Below, in pieces: positions 4,638-17,201 of a stretch of DNA of 21,270 nt. A model generated the notes under the pieces. The model was not told the DNA's origin, made no database searches, and worked only from the letters and a program-made list of their open reading frames with translations. The translations under genes and the position numbers were made by a program. Location: positions 1-21,270 of IMG/VR virus record IMGVR_UViG_3300009161_005892. One strand, given 5' to 3'. Position 1 is the first letter of the stretch. Each line of letters starts with the position of its first letter. This DNA comes from a virus.

Positions 4638-7145
4638 ATGTCGCTCGTAAAATTTAAACAGATTATAGCAAGCTTATTTTTTTGTACGTTCGCTGCTTGC
4701 GTAGTTGCAGAACCAGATGTTACTGTTGATTTATTGAGCTCAGGAGCAGCAACTGAACAGACTAGTGGGGGTGGTTCTACACAATTTAATTCATGCGAGA
4801 TTGGAACACAACGTGCATGTCATATAACCCTCGGTCAACATGAAGGTGTTATCAGCTGTTTCGCTGGGGTACAAAAATGTATCGATGGCGAGTGGTCCGA
4901 TTGCGGCGAGGGCGAAGAAATAGCAAAACATCCCGCCGATGATGGAAAACCGCTTTCCTTAACAGAAGAAAAAATCTGCGATGATAATCCTTGTGATCCA
5001 CGATGCAGTAAGTGGGTCGAGGATGGCAAATGGAAAGCAGACGGCACTGTATGTAAATGGACGTGGAACTGGTCGGCAGATCCTGCCGGAAGCATTGATA
5101 AAGCCAACAAAGATGGTGCAGCAAAAGAACCTTGCACTCATGGATCTCAATGCCACCAAAATCAGAAGTGTCAAGACCCGTCTCAAGGCTCTTGTTCACA
5201 CGACATTTGTGCCAAAGGCGTCGGTCTAAAAAAAGGTTGCGAGACGAATTGTGTCGATAAGATTTGTGACAACAAGACTCAGTGCTGTGAAAAGGAGTAC
5301 ACGGGTACTTGCGAAGTTGAGCCGTGTTTAACTTATCAAAAAGGTCTCACGAAGAATTGCGACCCAAACGTCAAGAAGACATGCGAGTGGGATAAGACAT
5401 GTTGCCCTTATACCCAAATCGAGACGTGTAGCTATTGGGATATCATCGGGTATAAGCAAGTTTGTGAATGGATCGAGACGTACAAATGCGGTTGGCGTCA
5501 ATACTACCAGTGCGGCTGGCGGTGGGTGGACGTCTACATTTGCGGATGGAGATGGAAGCAAATCTACATCTGTGGTTGGCGCTGGCGTTACATCTACACG
5601 TATATCTGCGGCTGGCGTTACATTTACACATACATCTGCGGTTGGCGCTGGCGCTACGTCTATACGTACATCTGCGGCTGGCGTTGGATCGAGACCTACA
5701 TCTGCGGCTGGCGCTGGACGTGGATCCAAACCTACGTCTGCGGGTGGCGTTGGATCCAGAACTACGTCTGCGGCTGGACGTGGCAGCTCACCTACTACTG
5801 TGACTGGTGGAGCTGCTGGTGGCAGGAGGAGTACGTCTACACCTGCTGGTGGGAGCAGCAGTACGTCTACGATTGCTGGTGGGAGCAGCAGTACGTCTAC
5901 ACCTATGAATGCTGGTGGGAGCAGCAGTACGTCTACCAATGCTGGTGGGAAGACGTCTACACGTACCTGTACGAGTGCTGGTGGGAGTACGTCTACACCT
6001 ACGGCTGCTGGTGGGAGGATGTTTACACATACTTGTACGAGTGCTGGTGGGAACAAGTTTATGTTTATGAATGCTGGTGGGAACTACAATACGTGTATGA
6101 ATGTTGGTGGGAAGAGCGCTATGAGTGTTGGTGGGAATTGATTCAAAAATGTTGGGATGAACCAGAGTATGGCTGGATCTTTTACTCGTGTGAGAAGAGT
6201 TATGATGGTGAATGGACCCAAAAATGCGTAGATCAATACAAGGTATACGTACCTGGCGCCTGTCCACTGAGTTGGAAGGGCGATTGGGATTCTACTTGTA
6301 TCAATGCTGTTCACGATACATGTCACAATTACTGTGATGGCGTAAAGCTTGGTGCAGGTGAATGCGCGGAATGGGAAGCACCTAACTTCGATGACAAGTG
6401 TTCTGACTTCGAGCTTGGCGTTGGTTTAACCTGCAAGATCGGAAACACACCCGTCATTACTATTTGCAACACCGGGTCCAAAGAAGCGCCAAAGGGAATT
6501 CCGATCGCAATCATGCCGAAGGGTTCGGGATATTTTGGAACAGAACCGTCTTCTCTTCCCGGTGCGAAATACTGTTACACAGACTCTGCCATCCCAGCAG
6601 GTGAGTGTCGTAATGTGAAGAGCTGCAACGTGGTCAATGGTGACGAAGTTATGATTAACCCGAAGCCGAGCGCCAACTATAACTCTGCCGAATGTTTTAA
6701 GGGTGACAACTGGGGGTTTTACTACGATGCTGTCTGTGGATATCCACCGAAATGTCCAGGCGGTTATGCCGACACGGTTAAGTCTGAGTCATACGAATCC
6801 ACATGTGATGATGATCAGACGTCCCAATGGGGTTACCTATCATGGGATGCGACCATCCCTATTGGCACAGAAATATCCTTTAGAATTCGTACAGCCAAAA
6901 CTAAAGCCGATTTATCTGTTGCAGCCTGGGTGATTATGAGCACGAAGTCGACAAACATGAAACCAGATTGTTCAATGGTGGGTCCTGTTCCATGTCCTAT
7001 TGACCTCTATACTCTGCTTGGTAAGATGGATGCACAAAAGAAATTTCTTGAGCTAGAAACGAGCTTCAAAGTGGATGTAGTCAAGAAGAATACCCCGACC
7101 CTAGAAAAGTGGGAGGTCAGCTATTCTTGTATCGAAGAACAATAA
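4638..7145 (+). CDS. giant Cys/Trp/Tyr-repeat lipoprotein with Myxococcota-type modules
   Basis: The product has 835 residues. MSLVKFKQIIASLFFCTFAAC is a signal peptide with lipobox FAAC. Residues about 52-95 (CEIGTQRACH...GVQKCIDGEWSDCGEG) are a module common in myxobacterial surface proteins. Residues 96-283 are Cys-rich with CC pairs. Residues 284-387 hold ten basic units (CGWRQYYQ, CGWRWVDVYI, CGWRWRYIYTYI and so on). CDWWS links them to twelve acidic units at 393-505 (CWWEQQYVYT, CWWEDVYTYLYE and so on). Every unit is 8, 10 or 12 residues. The C-terminus has a CARDB-like beta domain (VITICNTGSKEAPKGIPIAI) and a final beta domain with WGYLSWDATIPIGTEISFRI and CPIDLYTLLG, again myxobacterial in style. 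It should sit on the host or virion surface, rich in disulfides. The reading frame is continuous through the repeat, so it is not an artefact. Receptor, adhesin or exclusion roles are possible; none is shown. Confidence 0.9.
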   Translation: MSLVKFKQIIASLFFCTFAACVVAEPDVTVDLLSSGAATEQTSGGGSTQFNSCEIGTQRACHITLGQHEGVISCFAGVQKCIDGEWSDCGEGEEIAKHPADDGKPLSLTEEKICDDNPCDPRCSKWVEDGKWKADGTVCKWTWNWSADPAGSIDKANKDGAAKEPCTHGSQCHQNQKCQDPSQGSCSHDICAKGVGLKKGCETNCVDKICDNKTQCCEKEYTGTCEVEPCLTYQKGLTKNCDPNVKKTCEWDKTCCPYTQIETCSYWDIIGYKQVCEWIETYKCGWRQYYQCGWRWVDVYICGWRWKQIYICGWRWRYIYTYICGWRYIYTYICGWRWRYVYTYICGWRWIETYICGWRWTWIQTYVCGWRWIQNYVCGWTWQLTYYCDWWSCWWQEEYVYTCWWEQQYVYDCWWEQQYVYTYECWWEQQYVYQCWWEDVYTYLYECWWEYVYTYGCWWEDVYTYLYECWWEQVYVYECWWELQYVYECWWEERYECWWELIQKCWDEPEYGWIFYSCEKSYDGEWTQKCVDQYKVYVPGACPLSWKGDWDSTCINAVHDTCHNYCDGVKLGAGECAEWEAPNFDDKCSDFELGVGLTCKIGNTPVITICNTGSKEAPKGIPIAIMPKGSGYFGTEPSSLPGAKYCYTDSAIPAGECRNVKSCNVVNGDEVMINPKPSANYNSAECFKGDNWGFYYDAVCGYPPKCPGGYADTVKSESYESTCDDDQTSQWGYLSWDATIPIGTEISFRIRTAKTKADLSVAAWVIMSTKSTNMKPDCSMVGPVPCPIDLYTLLGKMDAQKKFLELETSFKVDVVKKNTPTLEKWEVSYSCIEEQ
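5487..6149 (+). repeat. tandem coding repeats: basic CGWRW array, then acidic CWWE array
   Basis: Units begin with TGC/TGT. The basic array (5487-5801) has units of 24, 30 or 36 bases with varied codons. The acidic array (5814-6149) is more uniform at DNA level: a 26-base core, GCTGGTGGGAGCAGCAGTAC followed by GTCTAC, recurs nearly unchanged several times, suggesting recent duplication. All unit lengths are multiples of 6 bases, so gain or loss keeps the frame and residue parity. Because the codon set rarely makes stops, other frames and the opposite strand are also open here. Confidence 0.9.
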
Positions 7146-7590: not shown

Positions 7591-8835
7591 ATGAAAGATA
7601 GATTTGACGGAATTAAAAGGGCATATAGCACTGTAGACGTTGCTCGACTTCGTGGCAAGACACACATAGAATATACACTAGCAAAGCTTGGTGCTGAGAG
7701 GCTTTGGCGACTAATTAACGAGAAATCATATATTCATGCATTAGGCGCTTCAACTGGTGCGATGGCAGTGCAACAGGTTAAAGCTGGTCTTGAAGCCATT
7801 TACCTGTCAGGGTGGCAGGTTGCAGCTGATGCAAATTTATCAGGCAATACTTACCCTGATCAAAGTCTTTACCCAGCGAATAGTGTGCCTGCAGTCGTCA
7901 AGCGGATTAACAACGCACTTCTTCGTGCTGAACAAATCGATTGCGCTGAGAATTTAAGTAGTGATAAACACTGGCTTGCGCCTATCGTTGCCGATGCTGA
8001 GGCAGGCTTTGGTGGTTCACTAAATGCATACGAGCTGATGAAAGCAATGATTGAAGCCGGGGCGGCCGCTGTTCACTGGGAAGATCAATTGGCATCTGAA
8101 AAGAAGTGTGGTCATTTAGGCGGTAAGGTTCTCGTTCCAACATCCCAATTTATCCGCACACTCACTGCAGCGCGACTTGCTGCTGATGTAATGAATGTTT
8201 CTACCGTAATTATCGCTCGAACGGATGCGGAATCTGCAAATCTAATCACAAGTGATATAGATCCATACGATCATGATTACATCGAAACTGGAAAGAGAAC
8301 TCCCGAGGGCTTTCATTATCTATGCAGGACGGGAATGGAACGTTCTATTTCTCGAGGACTTGCATATGCACCTTATGCAGACATGATCTGGATGGAAACA
8401 TCGATGCCTGATCTTGAGGAAGCAAAGATTTTTGCGGAAGGAATTCATGCACAGTTCCCAGGTAAGCCTCTTGCATATAATTGTTCGCCCTCATTTAACT
8501 GGAAGAAGAAACTTGACGATACAACTATTGCAAAATTTCAGAGAGAGCTTGGGGCGATGGGTTACAAGTTCCAGTTTGTGACCCTTGCAGGATTTCATTC
8601 TCTAAATCATGGTATGTTTGAGCTAGCGAGAAAATATAAAGATCATGGAATGACTGCATACTCTGAATTGCAACAAGCAGAATTTGATTCTGAAAAATTT
8701 GGTTATACTGCGACGAAGCATCAACGTGAAGTTGGAACAGGATATTTTGATGAAGTTTCCAAGATAATCTCAGGCGGAACTTCTTCAACTCTTGCGCTCA
8801 AAGAATCGACAGAAACACAACAGTTTAATAAGTAA
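7591..8835 (+). CDS. aceA: isocitrate lyase
   Basis: The enzyme cleaves isocitrate to glyoxylate and succinate, the first step of the glyoxylate shunt, in the cytoplasm. The 414-residue product aligns along essentially the whole length of bacterial AceA (E. coli AceA is 434 residues) and keeps its C-terminal [17 protein letters not shown]. Visible motifs are [64 protein letters not shown] with catalytic Cys173 in [24 protein letters not shown], and [15 protein letters not shown]. No key residue seems lost and there is no frameshift, so it should be active. The start ATG lies 9 bases after a TAATAT hexamer, with no clear Shine-Dalgarno. A lipoprotein gene begins 4 bases after its stop. No malate synthase is in the window. 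A complete isocitrate lyase among phage genes is unusual. Confidence 0.96.
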
Positions 8836-8839
8836 TAAT

Positions 8840-9163
8840 ATGAGTCCTAAAATATTATTAGCAATACTATTTGTGATTACTGCAGCAGCGTGTATAACAC
8901 AGATTGGTATTATGCCGCTACAAGATACCACTGAGGAGAAAAAAATAGAAAAATCTGTTCCTGATATTATTAGTCAAAAAAATAAAAAGAACTTCGACGA
9001 TTGCGGCTATGAACAGATAGTAGTTGAAAATCCTGATAAAACCAAGTCAATCATTACCATACCGCTTGAGTGCATAGATGAACTTGTGAATTCAGTATGT
9101 GATCCGCTTAAGGATTCGATGAAGAACTGCGTGATTGATAATATTGAAGTTATCAATCACTAA
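8840..9163 (+). CDS. small lipoprotein, unknown
   Basis: The product has 107 residues from ATG 8840, which lies 4 bases after the isocitrate lyase stop, so the two are probably one transcript. An in-frame TTG at 8792 inside isocitrate lyase would bury the signal peptide and is less likely. MSPKILLAILFVITAAAC is a lipoprotein signal with lipobox AAAC. The mature part has four further Cys residues (DDCGYEQIVVENP, PLECIDELVNSVCDPLKD, KNCVIDN), which could pair as disulfides in the periplasm. It shows no known domain. An envelope role is inferred from the signal alone. Confidence 0.75.
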   Translation: MSPKILLAILFVITAAACITQIGIMPLQDTTEEKKIEKSVPDIISQKNKKNFDDCGYEQIVVENPDKTKSIITIPLECIDELVNSVCDPLKDSMKNCVIDNIEVINH

Positions 9164-9400
9164 TATAAGAAGTCAGCGATCAAATGCTGATGTTAATGTA
9201 AGCCTAAAGAAATCTTAAGTATTAATTCAAGGATTACAGCCAGCATTAATGATTGATTGCAATGACATGTTACTTAAGCAAATTTGGCTAGACTGTTTGC
9301 AAATTATTTATGAATAATTACATAAACTTAAAAACAAACAATGCTTTTTATGCCTAACTCTCTTTTGTTTTGCCATACTTAAAAATCGGAAGATGATAGT
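9164..9400. other. 237-base stretch without a convincing gene
   Basis: This AT-rich interval holds only tiny frames, the best being a 22-codon ORF in the middle of the interval with weak coding character. I see no tRNA, strong hairpin or terminator. The last bases before 9401 read GATAGT directly against the next ATG. Confidence 0.5.
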
Positions 9401-9577
9401 ATGTCATCCTTAAAAGAAGATCTTGTTGAGCAGCTTGAGAATATCAATGCTCAGATTAATCAATTGAGAAAATCTACATCAAAGAATAGTAAAGTTGCTA
9501 AAGAAAAAGCACGTCTCATGAAGATCATGACAGATTTAATTTTAGAATTAGACATGTTAAAAGAGCCAAAAGATTAA
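9401..9577 (+). CDS. small coiled-coil protein (58 aa)
   Basis: The product begins MSSLKEDLVEQLENINAQIN and continues as heptad-like helix (QLRKSTSKNSKVAKEKARLM, then KIMTDLILELDMLKEPKD), so it is almost certainly a helical coiled coil. The ORF ends at TAA 9575-9577, 51 bases before the ClpP-like gene. Its composition and placement look genuine. Function is unknown; it could be a small scaffold or adaptor. Confidence 0.62.
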   Translation: MSSLKEDLVEQLENINAQINQLRKSTSKNSKVAKEKARLMKIMTDLILELDMLKEPKD

Positions 9578-9628
9578 ATTGAATTTATAAAATGTACTTT
9601 TGATTCTTAAAGGCTTTATATAGTCTAT

Positions 9629-10189
9629 ATGATAAACCTCGAGAAGCCGCATTCCAGAAATTTATTTCTAGCACAACAGGTTGACCAAGACACAATGAAT
9701 GTTTTGTCAAAGTCAATCATTGAAATTCGTGAACATGATGTGTATCTTGAAGGGTATTATAAGCTTCATGACTTAGCATATAAGCCAAAGCCCATTATAC
9801 TCCACATTGATTCGTATGGCGGTTCAGTTTATCAATGTTTTGGCTTGCTATCCATTATGAAATCAACAGGTACGCCTGTAAATACAGTTATCACAGGCTG
9901 CGCAATGTCATGTGGTTTTATGCTGGCAATTCATGGTGCACATCGATCGATTCACAAATATGGCACTATGATGTATCATCAGGTTAGCTCTGGGACAGTC
10001 GGTAAGGTTGCTGACATTAAAGAAGATTTGTTTGAAGCTAAACGTCTTCAGAAGCAGATTGAGGCTATGACTCTTGATCTTACAAAAATCACTAAAGCAA
10101 AATTAGAAAAAGTTTATAAGCGAAAGCAAGATTGGTATATTGATGCAAAGGATGCAGTCAAATTAGGCTGTGCTGACGAGATTATTTAA
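9629..10189 (+). CDS. ClpP-like serine protease
   Basis: The product has 186 residues, close to the usual 190-210 for ClpP. It has the crotonase-like ClpP fold: ILHIDSYGGSVYQCFGLLS with the oxyanion-hole Gly-Gly near residue 60, TVITGCAMSCGFMLAIHG with nucleophile Ser94 in the position of ClpP's 'xxASMG', and TMMYHQVSSGTVG with His117. By eye alignment the third triad residue, Asp before 'ERDRFLSAPEA' in E. coli ClpP, falls in YKRKQDWYIDAKDAVKLG and seems to be Lys. Phage ClpP-like proteins can act as head-maturation proteases or alter host Clp activity; no neighbour here decides between these. TATAGT ends 4 bases before the ATG. Confidence 0.85.
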   Translation: MINLEKPHSRNLFLAQQVDQDTMNVLSKSIIEIREHDVYLEGYYKLHDLAYKPKPIILHIDSYGGSVYQCFGLLSIMKSTGTPVNTVITGCAMSCGFMLAIHGAHRSIHKYGTMMYHQVSSGTVGKVADIKEDLFEAKRLQKQIEAMTLDLTKITKAKLEKVYKRKQDWYIDAKDAVKLGCADEII

Positions 10190-10260
10190 CTTCTGCATAA
10201 CAAATTATAAAAGAAACACTTTATCTAGCGCTGCCAGCATTCTTAATTAGCTTATAGCTT

Positions 10261-10362
10261 TTATAACTTATTTTTTATAGTTCCATCGATGCTTAACGTC
10301 CCAATGAATATAAAAAACGTTGTAGCAACAATAAAAAATCCTGTTATCAATGTTGTAATCAT
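10261..10362 (-). CDS. possible 33-residue single-pass membrane peptide
   Basis: The minus-strand ORF reads MITTLITGFFIVATTFFIFI followed by GTLSIDGTIKNKL. The first 23 residues are a strong transmembrane helix, with a short polar tail. It is alone in a non-coding interval and opposite to its neighbours. Small membrane peptides are common in phages, but an AT-rich region can produce such ORFs by chance. Confidence 0.33.
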   Translation of the reverse strand: MITTLITGFFIVATTFFIFIGTLSIDGTIKNKL

Positions 10363-10511
10363 ACGGTTTTATTTGTTTGATAAATTTAAATTAATAAATT
10401 TTTAGTGCAAGTTTTTACGAAAGCTTTGTAGAATTAAGTCATAGACACAATAATCAATTAAATTGAAAACTAAGCGTGTGCTGAGCGTGTGCTTCATACT
10501 CGTTGAACTAA

Positions 10512-10527
10512 TATAATATAATATAAG
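10512..10527 (+). promoter_or_regulatory. overlapping TATAAT boxes upstream of the 259-residue protein gene
   Basis: TATAAT occurs at 10512-10517 and again at 10517-10522, followed by TATAAG at 10522-10527. Any could serve as a -10 box, with transcription starting near 10525-10535 and a leader that includes the hairpin at 10537-10555. No convincing -35 box is seen. Confidence 0.5.
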
Positions 10528-10536
10528 TAAGTGAAA

Positions 10537-10555
10537 CTGAGGATGAAGCCCTCAG
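10537..10555 (+). repeat. leader hairpin before the gene at 10575
   Basis: CTGAGG pairs with CCTCAG (10537-10542 with 10550-10555) around a 7-base loop. It lies 20 bases before the start codon and would form at or near the 5' end of the transcript. That position recalls 5' stabilising stem-loops of some phage messages. It is not followed directly by a T run, so it is not a standard terminator. Confidence 0.45.
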
Positions 10556-10574
10556 AAGTAACCAATTTTTTATC

Positions 10575-11354
10575 ATGTCAACAATTCAATTCCCAGAAAA
10601 TCTAAAAAACAGAGAATTCTTTATCTTTGATCAAATCTTGACAGGCAACTTTGAGGCGATGTGGACAGAGATTGTTCATTGCATCGATGGCGAGGAAGTT
10701 AAGCTTCATGTAATGGAAGATGCACTTTTGGTAGGAGGTGTTAGAGTTAATGTTTCAGCTAATCTTGAACAGAAGATTGCTGATTTATTCAATGCATCTT
10801 TGCCGACTGCAATGGTTGCTGATATGATATATGCGTCTGCTGTCAGAAAAATCGGTCCATGCCCTATGCCTATCTCATCATCTGTAAGTGCTATGATAAC
10901 ACACTCTAATGCTGTAACAAAGCAGTTAACTTCAGATGTGGGCCTAGTTTCTACAACTGGGAAACATTGGGTTCTTGACAAAAAGATTGATCTTAATCCA
11001 AATTATGCATGCAACTACGGCTGGCATTTCACTGGGCCTATTTATAAAGGTATCAAAGGTTACCCAGCAGCATCAAAAATTGCCGGCAAGAACGTTAATG
11101 TAATTCAACCCAATGCAATAGCACATAATGTTTTACACTCTGATTATTCACAAGTCTGTCAGCTTGTCGCTCAACGTTGTTGGATCAATGATGTTGAACA
11201 ACGCTTCTCTGACGTCGTAAAAGATCCACAGATAGCTAATCTAGTATCGCATACAGGCGCACTTAAATTTAATAGACAGCCTGGCACTGCAGCTTATACA
11301 GGTAATAAGATTACTTTGCCTTTTAGACTTACTTTTTCTTGTCCTACAGCTTAG
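10575..11354 (+). CDS. conserved protein of unknown function (259 aa)
   Basis: No signal peptide is visible. Sequence features in order: FFIFDQILTGNFEAMW near the N-terminus, VAVxxD-like secondary structure around KLHVMEDALLVGGVRVNVS, IGPCPMPISSS near residue 95, DKKIDLNPNYACNYGWHFTG near 137-156, and IQPNAIAHNVLHSDYSQVCQ near 176-195 followed by LVAQRCWIN. The segment 'YGWH...IQP....H...DYS...LV' recurs in uncharacterised bacterial and phage proteins, which suggests a fold shared with a hydrolase-like family, but I cannot name it. Cys, His and Asp residues in that segment could form an active site. It has its own promoter-like leader with a hairpin and may head an operon with the zinc-ribbon and TilS-like genes (7 and 33 bases apart). 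Confidence 0.8.
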   Translation: MSTIQFPENLKNREFFIFDQILTGNFEAMWTEIVHCIDGEEVKLHVMEDALLVGGVRVNVSANLEQKIADLFNASLPTAMVADMIYASAVRKIGPCPMPISSSVSAMITHSNAVTKQLTSDVGLVSTTGKHWVLDKKIDLNPNYACNYGWHFTGPIYKGIKGYPAASKIAGKNVNVIQPNAIAHNVLHSDYSQVCQLVAQRCWINDVEQRFSDVVKDPQIANLVSHTGALKFNRQPGTAAYTGNKITLPFRLTFSCPTA

Positions 11355-11589: not shown

Positions 11590-12183
11590 ATGATTCGATT
11601 TCTTGGCGCGATTCCTAACAAGTGTACTGTGGCTTTTTCTGGTGGCGTTGATTCAGTTGCAGTAGCTGATTTTTTGTTGAACGGAAGGAAACAAGTAGAT
11701 CTCGCTTTCTTTCATCATGGAACAGAGACATCAGCTGCAGCATTAAAGTTTGTAACAGAATTTGCTACAGAACGTAAGCTTATTTTACGAATTGGTCGAT
11801 TATCACGAGACAGGTTAAAAGAAGAATCTCTCGAGGAATTTTGGCGGAATGAACGTCATGGGTTCTTTGCAACGTTTAATTCTCCCGTAATAACCGCACA
11901 TCATTTAGACGATGCTATTGAGACATGGATCTTTACATCGCTTCATGGAGAATCACGTTTAATTCCATATTCTAGCGGAAACGTAATTCATCCTTTCTTA
12001 ATCACGCCAAAAAAAGAGATTATTGCTTGGTGCAAGAAAAAAAATCTTAAGTGGATAGAAGATGAATCCAATCGTGATATACAGTTTATGAGAAACCTTG
12101 TTCGTCACAAGATTGTACCTGAAGCGTTGAAGGTTAACCCAGGTTTGCACAAGGTCATTAAAAAGAAGTATCTTGAGCTTTAA
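11590..12183 (+). CDS. TilS-like PP-loop ATPase (minimal)
   Basis: The product has 197 residues. TVAFSGGVDSVAVADFL (residues 13-29) is the PP-loop SGGxDS motif that adenylates the target base. FFHHGTETSAAALKFV, ITAHHLDDAIETWIF and HPFLITPKKEIIAWCKKKNL match TilS, tRNA(Ile)-lysidine synthetase, which makes lysidine at C34 of the CAU anticodon so that AUA is read as isoleucine. DESNRDIQFMRNLVRHKIVP is the conserved end of the N-terminal domain. It lacks the C-terminal tRNA-binding domains of bacterial TilS (about 430 residues), so its substrate range may differ. TATAAT lies 9 bases before the ATG. It converges on the lysozyme gene with a 4-base overlap. Confidence 0.85.
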   Translation: MIRFLGAIPNKCTVAFSGGVDSVAVADFLLNGRKQVDLAFFHHGTETSAAALKFVTEFATERKLILRIGRLSRDRLKEESLEEFWRNERHGFFATFNSPVITAHHLDDAIETWIFTSLHGESRLIPYSSGNVIHPFLITPKKEIIAWCKKKNLKWIEDESNRDIQFMRNLVRHKIVPEALKVNPGLHKVIKKKYLEL

Positions 12184-14051: not shown

Positions 14052-14825
14052 ATGCAAGACATTATCCACGACTACCTTAAAGGCTTAAGAGCATTTTCGC
14101 TTTTAAAACATCCAGAAGTTGTATCCTTGTTTAAAGAATACGCTGAAGGCACAGACGTATCTGCTAAAAAAGCAAAGAAGAAACTGATTGAGAGTAATCT
14201 TCGTCTAGTAATCTCTATTGCAAAAAGGCACAAAGGGCACAATATTCCGCTAGAAGATCTTATTCAAGAAGGAAATCTTGGTCTCTTAAAGGCGATTGAT
14301 CGCTTTGATTATAAACGAGGCTTTAGGTTTTCTACTTACGCGACTTGGTGGATTAAACAGGCAATTAGTCAGCACGTTCTTAAGCGTAAGCGTATGATTC
14401 GTCTCCCTGCACATGCTGCGTCTGTTCAAAAAAAGATCGTGCAAGCTGCTAATGAATACCGCGCAATGATGGGTTGTGAACCTTCAAATGAGGAATTACT
14501 TGAATTAATTGATGCATCTGAAACGGTTGTGAAAGCAACCATTGCTTCAGGTCGTAATACAGTATCACTAAATCAAACAATAACGTCTGATCCTGATTCT
14601 GGTTCATTAGGCGATAAGATTGAAGATGAAAATGAGAATGTTAATCCGTTTTATGTAACATCTTCTAAAGAACTACTTGGAATTGTTCAAGATGTTCTTC
14701 AAACGCTTACAGAAAAAGAATCTGCAATTCTCAGACTTAGATTTGGATTATTTGATGAAGACATGAACACCGCAGAATATAAAATTTCTGAAGGCGATGT
14801 ATCAATTCTTATGACTGGATCGTGA
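14052..14825 (+). CDS. sigma-70 family factor lacking region 4.2
   Basis: The product has 257 residues. Region 2 is complete: LIESNLRLVISIAKRHKGHN at 45-64, LEDLIQEGNLGLLKAIDRFD at 67-86, then YKRGFRFSTYATWWIKQAIS and HVLKRKRMIRLPAH (2.3-2.4, DNA melting and -10 recognition). Region 3 follows (SVQKKIVQAANEYRAMMGCE, PSNEELLELI). Region 4.1 is recognisable (LQTLTEKESAILRLRFGLFD, 216-235), but the protein then ends SEGDVSILMTGS where the 4.2 helix-turn-helix should begin. No missing 4.2 sequence is present in the other two frames just downstream. It should redirect RNA polymerase to -10-type promoters without normal -35 contact, as T4 gp55 does. TATACT lies directly before the ATG. The stop overlaps the next start (TGATG). 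Confidence 0.92.
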   Translation: MQDIIHDYLKGLRAFSLLKHPEVVSLFKEYAEGTDVSAKKAKKKLIESNLRLVISIAKRHKGHNIPLEDLIQEGNLGLLKAIDRFDYKRGFRFSTYATWWIKQAISQHVLKRKRMIRLPAHAASVQKKIVQAANEYRAMMGCEPSNEELLELIDASETVVKATIASGRNTVSLNQTITSDPDSGSLGDKIEDENENVNPFYVTSSKELLGIVQDVLQTLTEKESAILRLRFGLFDEDMNTAEYKISEGDVSILMTGS

Positions 14826-15819: not shown

Positions 15820-16539
15820 ATGACATCCATCATTGATATTCTAGAACAGCTTGAGGCTAATAACTCCCGTCTGTTCAAGGAAGAACTTCTCGAGATGCAC
15901 GGCGATAATAAACTTCTTCGCCGTGTATTTGTTGCATCATTTGATCCTTACACAAATTATTTCATTTCAAAATTTAAGATGCCAAAGGCGTCTAATTTCA
16001 CGCCTGAAGATGATGTTGTTATCAGTAATTTTCTAGACTTCATCACAGCATCATTAGCAACCAGACGAATAACAGGCAATACTGCTAAGGACGCAGTTGT
16101 TTCTTTCTTTTGCGAATTGTCTGAAAGACAACAACGGTGGTGTCTCAGAATCCTTCTCCGCAATCTTAGAGTTGGAGTGATGGAGACCACGATCAACAAG
16201 ATTTGGCCGGGTTCCATCTCCAAGTTCTCAGTGCAGCTTGCAGAGACGCTTGCTTCCACCCATAAGGTCGGAAAAGGAATCATAATCACAGAAGAAGTTC
16301 AGTATCCTGTTCGGGTCGAGCCGAAGCTTGACGGCCTCCGATGCATCGCGATCAAACACAAAGGCACAGTGACGATGTTCACACGAAGCGGTTCGGAGAT
16401 CGATACACCCGGTGTTCAAGAAATCAAGCGTGCGCTTGAAAATTCATCTTGGGACAATTTTGTTCTTGATGGAGAGCTTCTTGACGAAGATGGCACTTGG
16501 AATAGCACAGCGTCGGGTGTTCTAAAGAAAAAGATCTAA
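15820..16539 (+). CDS. ATP-dependent DNA ligase, N-terminal part (continues by -1 frameshift)
   Basis: The product has 239 residues up to a premature stop. Residues 1-140 are the N-terminal DNA-binding-type region (WCLRILLRNLRVGVMETTIN is a typical block). PVRVEPKLDGLRCIAI has the nucleotidyltransferase motif I KLDG with adenylated Lys169, and FVLDGELL is motif III. TWNSTASGVLKKK then hits TAA at 16537. T7-like ligases continue from 'NTGSGLLRTK' through a linker to 'LHIKLYAILP'. Here that continuation, LTFIPIQLEITL and on to IKFHIFDAM, lies in the -1 frame with no stop between 16506 and 17201. TATAGT lies 9 bases before the ATG. Alone this half cannot ligate, because motifs IV and V are in the second part. 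The role would be nick sealing in replication, repair or recombination. Confidence 0.9.
   Translation: MTSIIDILEQLEANNSRLFKEELLEMHGDNKLLRRVFVASFDPYTNYFISKFKMPKASNFTPEDDVVISNFLDFITASLATRRITGNTAKDAVVSFFCELSERQQRWCLRILLRNLRVGVMETTINKIWPGSISKFSVQLAETLASTHKVGKGIIITEEVQYPVRVEPKLDGLRCIAIKHKGTVTMFTRSGSEIDTPGVQEIKRALENSSWDNFVLDGELLDEDGTWNSTASGVLKKKI
16524..16539 (+). other. -1 frameshift site inside the DNA ligase gene
   Basis: The first frame reads CTA AAG AAA AAG ATC TAA. Reading one base back gives GAT CTA ACT and enters the open frame of the second part. Two explanations fit. One A may be lost from the A5 run at 16528-16532, since A6 would restore one continuous ligase. Alternatively, ribosomes may slip on GAAAAAG or AAAG. 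The expected structural linker is present in the shifted frame. Confidence 0.75.
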
Positions 16540-16586
16540 CTTTCATTCCAATACAACTTGAAATCACGTTAAGGTATAATAGAACC

Positions 16587-17201
16587 ATGGCAATCAAATT
16601 TCATATCTTCGATGCAATGCACTTCGACGACTGGCGTGCTCAGTCGAACGAAACACTCGTTCCCGATCGTGTCGAACTTGCATCTGAACTCGTCAACCAG
16701 GTTGGCTCCGACCACGTTGTCACGGTGGCAGGCAGAACGGTCAATGACCACTCCGAGCTGATGAAGTTCTACTCCTCTACGATGTCGAAAGGCTATGAAG
16801 GTATTATGGTGAAGGACCTCGATTCACCATATGTCTTTAAACGGTCTGGTGCAGTGCTTAAGCTTAAGCCTGTTGCTACTGCTGAGCTCGTTATTGTTGG
16901 ACATTACGAAGGTAACAGAGGCTCTAAGCGTGAAGGTCTATGGGGCGGTTTTGAAGCAAAGGCAGCAAATGGAGTGATCACAAAGGTTGGCGGAGGATAT
17001 AACGACAAAGTACGAGCTGAGATTCAGATAGCCGGCCCAGATTCGTTCATTGGAAGTATTATTGAATGCGAATACCAACCTGATCCACTAACTGGTGATG
17101 GCTTCACTTCAGATGGCAAACTTCGATTTCCTGTGTTCGTTCGTTTTCGCGACCCTCGAGATGTCGATGCCAAGTTTTTAAAGGCCTCAGAAGCTTTCTG
17201 A
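16587..17201 (+). CDS. ATP-dependent DNA ligase, C-terminal part
   Basis: This frame is open from 16506; the ATG at 16587 is the first possible start, giving 204 residues. MAIKFHIFDAMHFDDW carries motif IIIa (F-x-x-FDAM), MSKGYEGIMVKDLDSPYVFK is motif IV, and AVLKLKPVATAELVIVGHYE contains motif V (KLKP). The rest (GLWGGFEAKAANGVITKVGG, then IIECEYQPDPLTGDG and LRFPVFVRFRDPRDVDAKF) is the OB-fold domain as in T7-like ligases. It starts mid-domain, so it is the 3' half of the same gene rather than an independent protein. TATAAT at 16575-16580 sits 6 bases before the ATG and might allow separate expression. GC content is higher than in neighbouring genes. Confidence 0.9.
   Translation: MAIKFHIFDAMHFDDWRAQSNETLVPDRVELASELVNQVGSDHVVTVAGRTVNDHSELMKFYSSTMSKGYEGIMVKDLDSPYVFKRSGAVLKLKPVATAELVIVGHYEGNRGSKREGLWGGFEAKAANGVITKVGGGYNDKVRAEIQIAGPDSFIGSIIECEYQPDPLTGDGFTSDGKLRFPVFVRFRDPRDVDAKFLKASEAF

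Follow-up and report, generated by a model that had tools for sequence, protein, structure and literature searches.

A predicted giant mirror-matched β-hairpin on a Polyangia-type lipoprotein of jumbo phages and their putative hosts

Introduction

Fold-back rods whose two arms are kept equal in length are familiar from the antiparallel coiled-coil arms of SMC and Rad50 proteins, which are α-helical and intracellular. On a much smaller scale, the two antiparallel strands of the cyclic peptide θ-defensin are joined by a cystine ladder of three rungs. Very long β-hairpins also occur as the stems of pore-forming toxins, where they form barrels; these stems are not known to have a full ladder of disulfides. 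The bovine ultralong CDR H3 combines a stalk with a knob, reaches at most about 70 residues and has its disulfides in the terminal knob (PMC5994613).

The present analysis concerns a gene in a 21,270-nucleotide stretch of viral DNA, IMG/VR record IMGVR_UViG_3300009161_005892 (here called the window), the product of which is referred to as W. Like bovine CDR H3, W would send out a long two-stranded antiparallel β-ribbon from a single loop of a domain that contains disulfides; unlike it, hairpins of the W type span about 170–390 residues, have a Cys pair every 8–12 residues and mirror-matched units, and lack a knob. Their ladder, putative here, is similar to the cystine ladder of θ-defensin, but the hairpin lipoproteins are larger, with 10–19 rungs. 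They share with SMC and Rad50 the demand for equal fold-back arms, although the hairpin would be β and neither α-helical nor intracellular, and they differ from toxin stems in the low TM-scores between them, in the barrels that the latter form and in the Cys ladder that these lack. β-Ribbons and cross-strand disulfides are known; the combination of a mirror-matched dual array with cassette exchange could not be placed in any known kind. A text search of the open literature, partial in coverage, turned up neither a hairpin of this kind nor a related phage lipoprotein. We conclude that W is probably a giant mirror-matched antiparallel hairpin on a Polyangia-type lipoprotein, host-derived in jumbo phages and with its distal part exchanged.

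Results and Discussion

Gene and domain organisation

Table 1. Features of the W gene. Positions are nucleotides of the window; residues are those of W.
Feature	Position	Strand	Description
Giant-hairpin lipoprotein gene	4638..7145	+	835 aa; from sequence and homologues
Signal peptide with lipoprotein-type Cys at its end (FAAC)	4638..4700	+	Putative; read from the sequence
N-terminal Cys-rich modules	4794..5423	+	Chassis common to Polyangia lipoproteins; stops just past CC, the hairpin insertion point
Ascending basic arm, residues 276–387	5463..5798	+	11 Cys-led units (8,8,10,10,12,10,12,10,12,10,10)
Hairpin tip C388-DWWS-C393	5799..5816	+	Predicted two-residue WW turn; centre 390.5; AF2 strands
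Descending acidic arm, residues 394–505	5817..6152	+	Ascending arm mirrored
Distal hairpin cassette, 7 rungs plus turn	5565..6052	+	95% DNA identity to a Polyangiaceae MAG gene
Conserved C-terminal Cys-rich domain	6189..7142	+	Chassis resumes after the hairpin at WTQKCV

The layout of W (Table 1) is best read, from sequence comparison, as a hairpin grafted into one loop of a Cys-rich Polyangia lipoprotein. In hairpin-less relatives the module reads CC-TG-TWTQACV, whereas in W the hairpin occupies the stretch from CC to WTQKCV. The N- and C-terminal Cys-rich modules that flank the insert place W among the Cys-rich surface lipoproteins of Polyangia, an uncurated family whose chassis has matches in 92 of 318 genomes of the class (E ≤ 1e-5), and the lipoprotein-type Cys recurs in homologues in the contexts LIASC, LASC and LAAC. 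An earlier note on this DNA had described a lipoprotein with Myxococcota-type flanks, in agreement with this signal and these modules, and had known of no described family with the repeat; searches with W found no Pfam, NCBIfam or PDB-sequence match up to E = 1.

The chassis of W is homologous at both ends to that of Cys-rich VWA lipoproteins from Polyangia. Pfam VWA was found in L012, L013, L017 and L025; the scan detected none in P0001 or L006, and the close hairpin clade is without it. The VWA proteins differ in that, among the relatives read, only L012 and L013 have a hairpin, each together with VWA. Between the phage copies L002 and L003, the one pair compared, dN/dS is low (0.12 in the N domain, 0.02 in the C domain). 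In two chassis relatives, L021 and L025, there are inserts that on visual inspection resemble C-type lectins, although Pfam gave no lectin match in L025; the chassis may thus serve Polyangia as a platform for exchangeable inserts.

Mirror-matched arrays

The arrays of W comprise ten CGW units (nine CGWR and one CGWT), the CDWWS linker, eleven CWW units and a final CWD unit. The units and lengths given in the earlier note are thus borne out in the 835-residue frame apart from the single CGWT and one unit, CEWIETYK, left out of the earlier count; its addition gives 11 units per arm. Outward from the CDWWSC turn, the Cys-to-Cys lengths in both arms are 10,10,12,10,12,10,12,10,10,8,8, and each of the 12 Cys pairs between C276/C505 at the base and C388/C393 at the tip is centred on residue 390.5. 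Unit-length shuffles (20,000) reached at most 11 such pairs; in a stricter test, which counts consecutive nested pairs from the tip, the observed value was again 12 and the shuffle maximum 9. The next pair outward, C264/C518, fits if a one-residue bulge is allowed (spacings 12 and 13). The arms are of opposite charge, the basic arm having 13 K/R and 4 D/E and the acidic arm 2 K/R and 22 D/E.

Because the unit lengths are even, every Cys falls on one face. On this face 76% of the cross pairs in mirror register are aromatic-aromatic (Trp, Tyr), compared with 3% on the other. Arg lies opposite Val, Thr or Leu in register, and Glu opposite Gly, Thr or Ile. The earlier note had pictured the two arrays, basic and acidic, as paired through a ladder of cysteines, stacked aromatics and Arg–Glu bridges. 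The mirror register and the aromatic face favour all of these except the bridges: direct Arg–Glu pairs are not supported by the alignment of the arms, in which they are not among the common pairs, and diagonal contacts alone are possible. Nor do the arrays look like two free elements or a fibre, since exact mirror matching, which the earlier note had not recognised, fits one intramolecular antiparallel hairpin. From the exact mirror lengths of two arrays of opposite charge, we predict that they zip into one rod-like hairpin of roughly 25–65 nm.

Homologues and covariation

A homologue search identified four phage contigs beside the window, with full-length copies in three (L002, L003 and L004) and a partial copy in one (L005), and host genes in Polyangiaceae/Deltaproteobacteria MAGs, of which L006 is complete and L007, L008 and L010 (G299) are partial. 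The sample comprises five records from phages and three close genomes from hosts; further viral scans for homologues brought no additions, and there was no match among INPHARED phages. When viral contigs were searched with a DNA pattern of CWWE arrays, the known loci were recovered along with four others, which are unrelated and lack an open frame that fits. A Streptomyces yangpuensis plasmid match proved to be a repeat protein rich in Gly, hit in a different reading frame.

The repeat does occur in other phages and in Myxococcota with variable unit numbers, as the earlier note had anticipated, at 9–18 units per arm: 11 in W, 11 in L002, 9 in L003, 16 in L004 and 18 in L006. In the same order the arms are 112, 100, 80, 166 and 194 residues long, which at 0.33 nm per residue corresponds to rods of ~37, 33, 26, 55 and 64 nm. 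Every unit in these five full-length close members has a partner of equal length (65/65 pairs). For the partial G299 gene, the acidic arm read in reverse predicts a missing basic arm that begins 8,8,10,10,12,12,12,10,12,10 at its base. Even lengths, noted earlier for W, are general, being kept in all close homologues; they predominate (4, 6, 8, 12) in the distant L012 and L013, where odd spacings occur at the tip, beside bulges or close to the base.

Cys pairs on one centre number 12, 12, 10, 17 and 19 in W, L002, L003, L004 and L006, against shuffle maxima of 11, 11, 10, 13 and 16; the L003 value was matched by 3 of 20,000 shuffles. The nested-pair test is unsuited to the L002 and L003 tips, which have extra Cys residues on the other face, and the symmetric-centre test was applied there. 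These tips (CGWGYCCDFFWCEWCYNC) keep the mirror register, and their two added Cys, on the opposite face, could pair diagonally. As relatives, the homologues are not fully independent tests, and their differing layouts are the stronger argument. Both distant members, in which the repeat sequences are quite different, likewise have mirrored Cys ladders: in L012 the Cys spacings are 4,8,8,8,6,6,6,12 to either side of the tip, and L013 has 12 nested Cys pairs with one residue of slack.

Partner units also covary in sequence. With length fixed, their summed mutual information is 33.7, compared with a permutation mean of 16.8, and none of 2,000 permutations reaches it (0/1,000 when W is left out). 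For example, RYIYTY stands opposite DVYTYLYE and TWIQ opposite QQYVYTYE, while RYIYTYI is mostly opposite EYVYTYG. In L002, units of identical protein sequence have only 42–46% codon identity, pointing to constraint at the protein level. The array of host L006 contains recent duplications (codon identity 0.86–0.97). Within this gene (7866–11006), near-identical pairs of 12- and 10-residue units have been multiplied equally in both arms, apparently a coordinated expansion of two separate arrays.

Predicted fold

Structure prediction, proposed in the earlier note as a check, did better for the tip than for the hairpin as a whole, where confidence was low. AlphaFold2 returned a mean pLDDT of 35.5 for the whole hairpin (five homologues aligned), with 62–66 at the tip and strands symmetric about the same centre. 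For the distal 114 residues pLDDT was 86.2, with two of five models good and an alignment of two near-identical rows; strands 2–55 and 60–113 pair with i+j=115, and these strands, of 54 residues each, match the Cys register exactly. Together with the mirror register and the covariation, the tip model supports a predicted antiparallel β-ribbon stalk with its two strands in continuous register.

In β-hairpins a two-residue turn leaves the pair that closes it non-hydrogen-bonded, a position in which disulfides across the strands are favoured. The CDWWSC sequence suits such a turn, so that its closing Cys pair is predicted to be non-hydrogen-bonded and cross-strand disulfides to be favoured. That they are oxidised we infer from the Cys register and from a nearby DsbA-like gene in the host. 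In the structure we propose, the basic CGW(R) arm would run outward to the CDWWSC turn and the acidic CWWE arm would come back in register. Each Cys would lie opposite the Cys of its partner unit at non-hydrogen-bonded sites, giving a ladder of disulfides or cysteines on a face that is covered by Trp/Tyr pairs. The ribbon, ~37 nm in W, would project from a single loop of a Polyangia surface protein that is Cys-rich and lipid-anchored.

Two other arrangements of the arms have to be weighed against this hairpin. Pairing between molecules, to give a domain-swapped fibre, sheet or tube at the surface, would show an identical mirror, and the opposite net charges and exposed strand edges are compatible with it; the fit of CDWWSC to a tight two-residue turn, the conservation of C-x-x-x-x-C at the tip of all full-length close homologues and the monomer hairpin given by AlphaFold2 nevertheless make it unlikely. 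Foldseek searches of the PDB and of viral models found only generic long hairpins at low TM-scores. Among these, weak matches to pore-forming proteins with long hairpin stems raise the idea that hairpins of several molecules form a long β-barrel or channel, but TM-scores of about 0.1–0.2 reflect generic hairpin resemblance and no membrane-spanning belt was recognised, so that we regard this as very improbable and favour the monomeric, intramolecular hairpin.

Probable exchange of the distal hairpin

A stretch of 488 bp, the distal cassette of Table 1, is 95% identical in DNA between W and host L006, whereas the domains flanking the hairpin are both about 70% identical in protein. Unit by unit from the tip, DNA identity is 0.97, 1.0, 0.94, 0.93, 0.94, 0.90 and 0.92 in one arm and 0.97, 1.0, 0.97, 0.97, 0.92, 1.0 and 0.86 in the other, falling in each case to 0.63 in the next unit; the breakpoints on both arms thus correspond to the same ladder rung. 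At identical amino acids, codon identity is 0.88 inside the segment compared with 0.41 and 0.39 in the N and C domains. Third-position GC (Trp and Met omitted) in the N domain, hairpin and C domain is 0.36/0.70/0.43 in W, 0.30/0.85/0.25 in L004 and 0.78/0.91/0.81 in host L006; it is host-like only in the hairpin in W and L004, and not strongly so in the hairpins of L002 and L003 (0.49 and 0.47). Trees of the flanking domains, which are poorly resolved, do not separate phage and host into clades.

The main alternative to phage–host exchange is that the DNA match is an assembly chimera joined through similar repeats. All copies come from metagenome assemblies, in which repetitive arrays are prone to mis-assembly, and the host contigs G002 and G299 break off inside the array. 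Yet the match is 95%, short of identity; the outer rungs, unlike those of the host, still mirror one another; the breakpoints fall on the same rung; and phage G005 is independently host-like in third-position GC in its hairpin only (0.85 versus 0.30/0.25). A chimera is on this evidence improbable. We favour exchange, by which jumbo phages would carry host-derived copies and would have traded the distal hairpin with host genes. A single contiguous swap of the central DNA would alter both arms at once, so that the rod could change with its register kept.

Phage and host context

Judged by its genes, the window is jumbo-phage DNA with relatives in the T4-like 211-kb phage G004. Protein identities to G004 are 62% for a transglycosylase, 86% for isocitrate lyase, 70% for ClpP and 48% for DUF2201; isocitrate lyase and ClpP are 76–77% identical to those of G003, and a 21.6-kb record (G006) is syntenic with the window. 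The neighbours of the W gene are thus common to a phage that carries structural genes, G004 encoding terminase, portal, major head protein, tail sheath, ribonucleotide reductase, SbcCD and GroEL.

In the host, the conserved gene order is FG-GAP/ASPIC, DsbA-like thioredoxin, small protein, FG-GAP/ASPIC, hairpin, DUF4215 and trypsin, with a glycosyltransferase and GH31 further out; this order comes from three genomes, with two loci partial or split over contigs. None of these operon neighbours was found in the phages. A T4-like late promoter motif (TATAAATA) showed no enrichment and no occurrence upstream of the hairpin gene.

A protein that is phage-encoded and predicted to be long might be a virion fibre or spike. 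The lipoprotein-type signal, the chromosomal operon in which the host homologues lie and the distance of the gene from structural genes in the 211-kb phage (hairpin gene at 116–119 kb; terminase, portal and capsid at 4–15 kb; tail sheath at 33–37 kb) all speak against this, and we think it highly unlikely that W is a virion part. We infer instead display on the surface of the infected cell.

Putative function

The lipoprotein-type signal, the extracellular-type Cys content, the host operon and the common distal hairpin suggest that these phages display a stalk matching the host's own. The likeliest purpose, though at less than even odds, is that the phage shows a host-like stalk on the infected cell that would mask, replace or co-assemble with a receptor structure, resulting in superinfection exclusion or mimicry. 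This idea, raised in the earlier note, is better motivated now that homologues in the host, the operon around them and the phage–host trade in distal hairpins are recognised, and the likeness of W to superinfection-exclusion lipoproteins would be one of functional analogy alone. Alternatives consistent with the same context are upkeep of a host surface function during infection, or interference with host stalk assembly.

The chances seem about even that these proteins represent a class of mirror-array rods, disulfide-laddered and up to ~64 nm long, that coevolve unit by unit and trade a cassette so that phage stalks match, and perhaps disguise or co-assemble with, those of the host. Arrays that stay mirror-matched in evolution offer a readable natural record of β-sheet pairing and register, and suggest a β rod that is genetically modular and tunable in length. 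The segment common to phage and host indicates how such a rod may change its tip or length without losing register. That jumbo phages carry such a host stalk and keep it updated suggests that an arms race is under way at the cell surface of uncultured Polyangia.

Other genes in the window

Genes for an isocitrate-lyase-family protein (7591–8835), ClpP (9629–10189), a PP-loop, TilS-like protein (11590–12183) and a sigma-70-like protein (14052–14825) lie downstream of the W gene. The isocitrate lyase, an unusual auxiliary gene, is 86% and 77% identical to the copies of two related phages. The transglycosylase-domain protein at 71–1579, whose 62% homologue in G004 is L052, may act in cell-wall remodelling or lysis. 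ATP-dependent DNA ligase domains extend over two ORFs in different frames at 15820–17201, consistent with a frameshift, an assembly error or a broken gene.
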